Part shown: piece after piece, positions 2,485 through 2,771 of the stretch
Numbering within the stretch: the first letter of the stretch is position 1
Layout: every line of letters starts with the position of its first letter
Assembly (NCBI GenBank): GCA_012513595.1
Contig: JAAZBY010000134.1
Location: 1 to 9,798 of the forward strand
Source: Chloroflexota bacterium
Lineage (GTDB): Bacteria > Chloroflexota > Anaerolineae > UBA1429
Direction: 5' to 3'
Length of the DNA: 9,798 bases
Position numbers and translations under genes: made by a program
Notes under the pieces: model-generated
What the model was told of the DNA's origin: nothing
What the model saw: only the letters and a program-made list of their open reading frames with translations
Databases searched by the model: none

Positions 2485-2513
2485 TTGACGCTCACGTCGG
2501 TCTGTGGTACGTT
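2485..2513 (+). promoter_or_regulatory. Promoter of the aroF leader transcript
   Basis: TTGACG (2485-2490) and TACGTT (2508-2513) are separated by exactly 17 bp, and TGG directly before the -10 box supplies an extended -10 element. Transcription would start near 2520, about 20 nt before the leader-peptide ATG. That short distance suits an attenuation leader, in which the first ribosome must follow RNA polymerase closely. Confidence 0.65.
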
Positions 2514-2539
2514 AGCCGCATCTCAGACGATGGAGCACG

Positions 2540-2692
2540 ATGGTGACGCAGTTCCTGGCAGGTATTGATCCGCAGCCTATCGAGCAGAGCCCCTCGGGCG
2601 TGGCCTGGGCCGCCTCGCGGGCCTTTCTCTATGGCTTTGCCTACTATTACGTGAGCGCCATACGGGCGAACGTCGCGTCGCGCACGTCGTAG
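2540..2692 (+). CDS. Aromatic leader peptide of the aroF attenuator
   Basis: A 50-codon ORF starts at ATG 2540 with GGAG (2532-2535) four bases upstream and stops at TAG 2690-2692. Residues 29-37 read F-L-Y-G-F-A-Y-Y-Y: two Phe and four Tyr in nine residues, ending with three consecutive Tyr codons (2642-2650). One Trp is at residue 23. Outside this cluster the sequence resembles no protein I know. Its promoter, the aromatic run, the stop codon just past one arm of an alternative RNA hairpin, the downstream intrinsic terminator and the DAHP synthase gene that follows all fit a regulatory leader peptide whose translation senses charged tRNA-Tyr (and perhaps tRNA-Phe). The peptide itself probably has no other function. 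At 50 residues it is longer than the enteric pheA, trp or pheST leader peptides. Confidence 0.8.
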   Translation: MVTQFLAGIDPQPIEQSPSGVAWAASRAFLYGFAYYYVSAIRANVASRTS

Positions 2693-2749
2693 GCACAGGC
2701 AACGAAGCACCGCCGAGACCAAGAGCAGAGACAGAGAGCGTGAGGCGAC
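2649..2749 (+). promoter_or_regulatory. Attenuator RNA: protector (1:2) and antiterminator (2:3) pairings
   Basis: Region 1, ACGTGAGCG (2649-2657), begins inside the last Tyr codon and pairs with region 2, CGCGCACGT (2679-2687): eight base pairs with one A/G mismatch. Region 2 can instead pair with region 3: GTCGC (2677-2681) with GCGAC (2745-2749), and CACG (2683-2686) with CGTG (2739-2742), with a small internal loop between. Region 3 contains most of the 5' arm of the terminator (2733-2745), so the 2:3 and terminator pairings exclude each other. Predicted behaviour: a ribosome stalled on the Tyr codons covers region 1, frees region 2 and lets the antiterminator form. A ribosome that reaches the stop at 2690 covers region 2 and lets the terminator form. 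The pairings were found by eye and no energies were computed. Confidence 0.7.
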
Positions 2750-2771
2750 AGCCCTCACGCTCTCTTTTTTT
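2733..2771 (+). terminator. Attenuator terminator upstream of aroF
   Basis: AGAGAGCGTGAGG (2733-2745) and CCTCACGCTCTCT (2753-2765) form a perfect 13-bp stem with a seven-base loop, followed by an uninterrupted run of seven T (2765-2771). This is a strong intrinsic terminator. It lies 41 bases past the leader-peptide stop and about 140 bases before aroF on the same strand, so it can act on aroF only if it is conditionally bypassed. Confidence 0.92.

Follow-up and report, generated by a model that had tools for sequence, protein, structure and literature searches.

Ribosome-mediated transcription attenuation in the pheA and trp operons of Escherichia coli operates through a scheme of competing hairpins. 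A leader of this kind on an aromatic pathway entry operon, the aroR leader of the aroF operon in Corynebacterium glutamicum, was reportedly described by Neshat et al. in 2014. In the consulted portions of PMC11802643, the AroR leader with its Phe-Tyr-Phe upstream of the aroF operon is described as answering to Phe and not to Tyr, and aroF and aroH of E. coli as targets of the repressors TyrR and TrpR. Before the Firmicutes cases of Naville and Gautheret (2010), leader-peptide systems had, according to the consulted part of their paper (PMC2965389), not been shown outside the Proteobacteria and the Actinobacteria. In the sections consulted, PMC4833913 treats the Chloroflexi as too thinly sampled to judge, PMC9413887 names them only in a reference title and PMC1262725 gives no leader-peptide element for Phe or Tyr operons in the Actinobacteria. 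Among the papers listed by searches of an open-access library, with most subscription papers outside its scope, none reports such a leader system for the Chloroflexota in its title or abstract.

The window, which is the whole stretch of 9,798 nucleotides analysed here, encodes a 3-deoxy-7-phosphoheptulonate (DAHP) synthase of type I-beta with a ferredoxin-like domain at 2913-3926 (+), recognised by PF18152, PF00793, NF006421 and TIGR01361. DAHP synthase catalyses the first step of aromatic amino acid synthesis and is the point of entry to the shikimate pathway. The nearest solved structure by sequence is 1rzm, matched over residues 1-333, which we take to be the DAHP synthase of Thermotoga maritima, inhibited by Tyr via its N-terminal ferredoxin-like domain. 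A SpoVS-family gene (1901-2230, -) lies on the upstream side of the attenuator and the DAHP synthase gene and ftsZ (4041-5576, -), the next family-matched gene, on the downstream side; an ORF at 305-928 (+) carries a C-terminal Ada-like metal-binding domain after a Pro/Ala/Thr-rich stretch. The DAHP synthase gene is very probably preceded by a classical ribosome-mediated transcription attenuator, a reading which draws on the sequence and on comparison, namely on a promoter pattern, an ORF, a codon cluster, a terminator, the absence of a like promoter behind it and a set-wide antiterminator pairing.

The first-pass annotation had described a promoter, a 50-codon leader ORF with a ribosome binding site and an aromatic cluster, and a 13-bp terminator with seven T, in this order on the strand of the DAHP synthase gene. 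Direct reading of the forward strand confirms the order, with the DAHP synthase gene following. The promoter (2485-2513, +), recognised from the sequence and from the pattern in the relatives, consists of TTGACG (2485-2490), a 17-nt spacer and TACGTT (2508-2513), with a TG one base 5' of this -10 element; it has 8 of the 12 consensus bases by our own count and falls below the threshold of a generic promoter scan, which reported no promoter in 2200-3100. The predicted leader ORF (2540-2692, +) begins with an ATG at 2540, four bases after a GGAG, and ends with the stop codon at 2690-2692; its translation is MVTQFLAGIDPQPIEQSPSGVAWAASRAFLYGFAYYYVSAIRANVASRTS. Its start lies 26 nt 3' of the -10 element, and in many relatives the distance is 23-31 nt. 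The putative control codons, F-L-Y-G-F-A-Y-Y-Y (2624-2650, +; TTT CTC TAT GGC TTT GCC TAC TAT TAC), include six Phe or Tyr codons among nine and end in a Tyr triplet at 2642-2650. The intrinsic terminator (2733-2771, +), detected by a terminator scan and seen in the sequence, has a 13-pair stem (2733-2745/2753-2765), a 7-base loop and seven T (2765-2771), and is separated by 141 nt from the ATG of the DAHP synthase at 2913. Dinucleotide shuffling of 2231-2912 produced a comparable ORF and terminator in 1 of 1000 shuffles, counted as a short ORF with at least five aromatics in ten residues (the real stretch has six) and then a terminator. Over the whole window the leader is the single match on the forward strand and the reverse strand has none. 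Between the terminator and the DAHP synthase gene only a 33-codon ORF intervenes (2815-2916, +; MTTGHCRGAAALLVRLAGAGRARRQCLAREGAR); its stop overlaps the DAHP synthase start (ATGA), and its translational coupling to DAHP synthase is possible from this overlap.

The same arrangement was searched for in relatives, the set comprising the best 80 of 409 relatives in a species-genome collection, which gave 79 loci that are 57-74% identical. Chloroflexota-type labels (Anaerolineae, Ardenticatenia, Thermoflexales, Caldilineae and the like) are borne by 71 of the 79, which fits the Chloroflexota-like host proposed in the first-pass annotation. A first scan for the leader ORF cluster and terminator on both strands of the 79 loci and the window found a match on the forward strand in 46 of the 80 sequences (window counted), always upstream of DAHP synthase, and a single match, L055, on the reverse strand. 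A second scan was confined to the 75 sequences left after dropping five that have at most 300 nt of upstream DNA (L029, L034, L057, L071, L072), one of which, L057, had matched in the first scan; its wider loop limit added L004, L011, L017 and L032. In it, 49 of the 75 upstream stretches (48 relatives and the window) match, before DAHP synthase or an operon leading to it. The opposite strand gives 1 match in 75; DAHP synthase together with the DNA downstream of it gives none on either strand, and neither do five dinucleotide-shuffled sets. Thus the search proposed earlier, for Phe/Tyr-rich short ORFs followed by a terminator upstream of the gene in relatives, came out strongly positive, and the arrangement in the relatives supports the attenuator reading. 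The Bellilinea caldifistulae locus (L028) is an example in which the DAHP synthase operon is preceded by a leader with RFFPWFYAYFFYG.

The 34 sequences without a strict match in the first scan are of several kinds. Six have less than 700 nt upstream (L029, L030, L034, L043, L071, L072), seven show at looser limits at least six aromatics in ten residues and a hairpin (L004, L006, L007, L011, L017, L032, L074), and five have the cluster with no terminator detected (L009, L025, L033, L042, L051). Loci in which the terminator is kept and the cluster lost, the case named in the first-pass annotation as refuting, were looked for; L003, L022 and L076, missed by the strict scan, seemed to be of this kind, but on reading they proved to keep in-frame TYYHF, FTYYY and LYYY, respectively. 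In the scanned upstream DNA of the remaining thirteen (L020, L023, L035, L036, L038, L039, L053, L056, which is masked there, L060, L066, L068, L075 and L078) no convincing sign of a leader was seen. In the taxonomic order to which the genome of L001 belongs, 15 genomes were searched, nine of which gave a close match; six of the eight loci of that order besides that of L001 have a leader at looser limits, and L177 and L178 have none within 1.5 kb.

Further loci of the phylum gave 19 strict matches among 63 (60 loci and three second DAHP synthase copies) and none on the opposite strand; as the first 16 of the 60 were top-ranked genomes whose 1.5-kb flanks had given no match and the rest were next-ranked genomes hand-picked among the matches listed, the 60 are not an even sample and 19 of 63 may therefore understate the frequency. 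Looser limits add clusters of at least six aromatics with a hairpin in L119, L120, L135, L137, L140, L141, L165, L168 and L172, and of 30 loci with 1.5-kb flanks 14 match on the strand of the gene. The second copies L110 and L111, whose DAHP synthases are about 58-59% identical to that of the window, have no recognisable aromatic leader in 3 kb upstream, and the second copy L112 has none in the 196 nt available. Some entries represent the same DNA (L113 and L076, L175 and L004, L178 and L007), and the genes of L001 and L028 recur as L080 and L087. The larger set used below comprises 71 leaders, 46 from the first scan, 19 from the further loci (one of which, L132, belongs to the second RNA class) and six from the close family, all with distinct leader-terminator stretches. 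One locus, L077, is labelled Zixiibacteriota; its leader contains RYYRYYYYYN, and its antiterminator match comprises 14 pairs (p 0.003 and 0.005 in two tests). It may represent a switch outside the Chloroflexota or a misbinned contig. A search of viral contigs with the leader peptide gave 22 pattern matches and no confirmed relative.

When all 190 residue pairs were compared, Phe+Tyr ranked first (48 of 75 upstream stretches), followed by Ala+Phe (34), and Phe and Tyr together make up 5.4% of the residues in short ORFs, i.e. they are rare. The clusters of the 46 leaders contain 114 TTT, 31 TTC, 95 TAT and 56 TAC codons, and because both Phe codons and both Tyr codons are used the clusters are not a DNA repeat. 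Since some nascent peptides are known to stall ribosomes in response to a ligand, a leader of this composition might also act as an arrest peptide sensing a free aromatic amino acid or other ligand. Arrest peptides are usually conserved in sequence, however, and the leaders of the subgroups share little beyond the aromatics, though they are alike within subgroups; nor did four leader peptides yield a credible NCBIfam family, three having no match and one only two weak matches (E 0.08-0.09). We consider an arrest peptide improbable.

Upstream of the cluster, a promoter pattern of the form TTGA(C/T)..TANNNT occurs within 250 nt in 67 of the 71 leaders; in 61 of 65 leaders (window counted) it is present where mononucleotide shuffles give an expectation of 0.95. 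Most leaders start either 23-31 nt or about 10 nt after the -10 element, and a Shine-Dalgarno-like word is absent before some leaders. An ATG only 10 nt after the -10 element is seen in thirteen loci (L010, L131, L133, L134, L138, L139, L143, L145, L146, L154, L156, L158, L163), the leader mRNA of which is therefore probably almost leaderless. The last aromatic codon precedes the terminator by 51-85 nt (median 62) in the 71 leaders and by 76 nt in the window, the scan having allowed a wider range of spacings. The ORF and terminator by themselves would fit an independent small protein gene ending in its own terminator, and some leader peptides, such as those of L055 and L058, are long and hydrophobic. 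Such a gene is nevertheless very unlikely here: within 250 nt behind the terminator the promoter pattern is found in none of the 71 loci, the generic scan reported no promoter behind the terminator of the window, and the position of the ORF is tied to aromatic biosynthesis genes. The ten ORFs that were picked from eight loci as lying between the terminator and DAHP synthase in relatives are all of aromatic biosynthesis (six chorismate mutases (CM_1), two prephenate dehydratases and two further DAHP synthases). As no like promoter follows the terminator, the genes appear to depend on terminator readthrough.

An RNA of a different kind could also control the terminator, with the ORF incidental. 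The consulted part of PMC1262725 places Tyr-related genes of other bacteria under T-boxes, and a T-box or another ligand-binding RNA was accordingly considered. Rfam gave no match at its curated cutoff in the whole window, nothing beyond three weak microRNA matches when E up to 5 was allowed in 2440-2912, and only an SRP RNA and a tmRNA in 12 related loci, which makes this explanation highly improbable as well. The small independent gene, the T-box and the arrest peptide were set aside.

Folding of the leader RNA of the window suggests the four segments of an attenuator. Segment 1 (2639-2657, +), which overlaps the Tyr codons, pairs with 2679-2694 in a 1:2 hairpin; segment 2 (2672-2683, +; GTCGCGTCGCGC), the antiterminator strand identified by folding and duplex tests, lies also inside this hairpin and can form 11 pairs with one mismatch with 2738-2749 in the left arm of the terminator (segment 3), whose partner is segment 4. 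With segment 4 absent and a ribosome masking the RNA through the Tyr codons, the best fold of the window pairs 2672-2683 with 2738-2749; with everything from 2624 present, 1:2 and 3:4 coexist. Antiterminator pairing (2:3), which occupies the left arm of the terminator and so excludes it, is supported both in the window and set-wide. In the window, the duplex exceeds shuffles at p 0.02 and 0.01 in two tests; p is below 0.05 in 20 of 46 loci and in 31 of 71 in the larger set, and as the loci are related, combined p-values overstate the support. When partners were exchanged among the 46 loci, none of 20000 exchanges beat the mean energy of the true partners, which we read as covariation, though the true partner outranks every other in only 5 of 46 arms.

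The tests of the 1:2 hairpin and of its competition with 2:3 gave mixed results. Across the set the 1:2 duplex is supported, with p<0.05 in 17 of 71 leaders, but in the window alone it is not significant (p 0.31); the window fold of 2639-2697 has -24.2 kcal/mol, equalled by 17 of 500 shuffles, and that of 2624-2697 is equalled by 59 of 500. The overlap of 1:2 with 2:3 is barely above that of shuffles (0.58 vs 0.53). When segment 1 is masked, only 24 of 46 loci gain in 2:3 pairing, the mean rising from 0.55 to 0.63 (Wilcoxon p 0.03) where shuffled loci fall by 0.085, and in the window, contrary to the model, the pairing drops from 0.63 to 0.48. In the fold of 2624-2750, which leaves segment 1 unmasked and lacks segment 4, the minimum-energy structure of the window already contains 2:3, and when the fold begins at 2600 an upstream stretch captures segment 3 instead. 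In ten close-family leaders the 3:4 terminator persists in the full-length minimum fold; several (e.g. L022, L173, L175, L179) also have, as judged by eye, a long helix that encloses the aromatic codons and takes the antiterminator strand. For the window, the minimum with a stalled ribosome and all segments is still the terminator, and therefore the order of folding and synthesis must decide, as the order of synthesis does in classical attenuators.

From these features we infer that the leader is translated, that ribosomes stall on it, that the switch works and that it responds mainly to Tyr; the mechanism would proceed as follows. RNA polymerase would start at about 2520 and a ribosome would begin the leader at 2540. 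With Tyr-tRNA (less surely Phe-tRNA) charged, the ribosome would reach the stop codon at 2690-2692, segment 3 would pair with segment 4 and transcription would end at about 2771. With Tyr-tRNA scarce, the ribosome would stall on the Tyr codons at 2642-2650 and break the 1:2 hairpin; segment 2 (2672-2683), thus freed, would pair with segment 3 (2738-2749), no terminator would form and DAHP synthase would be made.

The first-pass annotation took the leader to be a Tyr/Phe leader, of which the Tyr part is borne out by the closest relatives and the Phe part is not constant among them. In the ten close-family leaders compared (the window, L001, L022, L076, L173-L176, L179 and L180), at least two tandem Tyr codons occur in all and Phe varies, and because tandem Tyr is the constant part Tyr is the likeliest signal. 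Equal sensing of Phe and Tyr by the leader, or of any aromatic, is a substantial possibility that we hold to be somewhat short of probable. Two Phe codons are present in the cluster of the window, and within 12 residues 24 of 65 leaders contain F+Y and 39 F+W+Y, with one containing F only and one Y only. In the 63 leaders with both residues the last Phe and the last Tyr are 1.56 codons apart vs 2.05 with shuffled labels (0 of 200 shuffles), as if a shortage of either would stall the ribosome at one place, and according to the consulted part of PMC11802643 the Phe-Tyr-Phe leader of C. glutamicum answers to Phe only. On the other hand, the window has its last Phe codon four codons ahead of its last Tyr codon, the YYY of L076 has no Phe close to it, and L176 (YYYY) places its last Tyr seven codons after the nearest Phe. 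On their codon patterns, the wider set is read as an OR gate and the window as a Tyr-dominated switch.

A second class of RNA was recognised immediately before DAHP synthase in L104, L125, L129, L132, L136 and L151. Its leaders carry YYW (WYW in L151); behind them come a hairpin that differs from that of the first class and shows covariation, and then a terminator like ACCGGAGG/CCTCCGGT. Rfam had no match at this RNA in any of the six loci. A model built from the six (R1) and searched against 400 genomes of the phylum gave seven matches at E 1.1e-12 or better, the six and a new one (G196:C34:75272-75374) 49 nt before a DAHP synthase match, and seven weaker matches at E 1.6e-6 to 9e-5. A broader proposition, to which we give an even chance, is that the entry step of the pathway in the Chloroflexota is widely run by leader-peptide attenuators whose sensed amino acids have been rewired by lineage, with Tyr in the family of the window, Phe+Tyr elsewhere, Phe+Tyr+Trp in leaders whose interleaved codons would work as an OR gate, and Tyr+Trp in the second, differently folded RNA, just before DAHP synthase where strongly matched.

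The attenuator would extend leader-peptide attenuation to a large, mostly uncultured phylum and to the enzyme with which the shikimate pathway begins, and would provide a natural set for studying changes in the amino acids to which a leader responds; coupled transcription and translation are also predicted in these bacteria. With the His leader peptides of the Firmicutes, as described in the consulted parts of PMC2965389 and PMC9413887, it would share leader-peptide attenuation outside the Proteobacteria and the Actinobacteria, whereas those systems concern histidine, other genes and another phylum. Like the E. coli pheA (pheL) and trp (trpL) attenuators, it has a promoter, a leader ORF with codons for the end product, a terminator and putative competing hairpins; unlike them, it would regulate the common-pathway entry enzyme, with Tyr together with Phe as the control residues. 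Among the closest described systems, aroR of C. glutamicum, compared here by its description in the consulted part of the source, likewise has a leader with Phe and Tyr codons before a DAHP synthase operon, and the ribosome-mediated transcription attenuation that is proposed for the window, but belongs to another phylum, has a short Phe-Tyr-Phe stretch and answers to Phe only. Since a Phe/Tyr leader is thus known in C. glutamicum, the kind is known and only the phylum is new; what is new, as far as the searches of the open-access library show, is its presence and breadth in the Chloroflexota.
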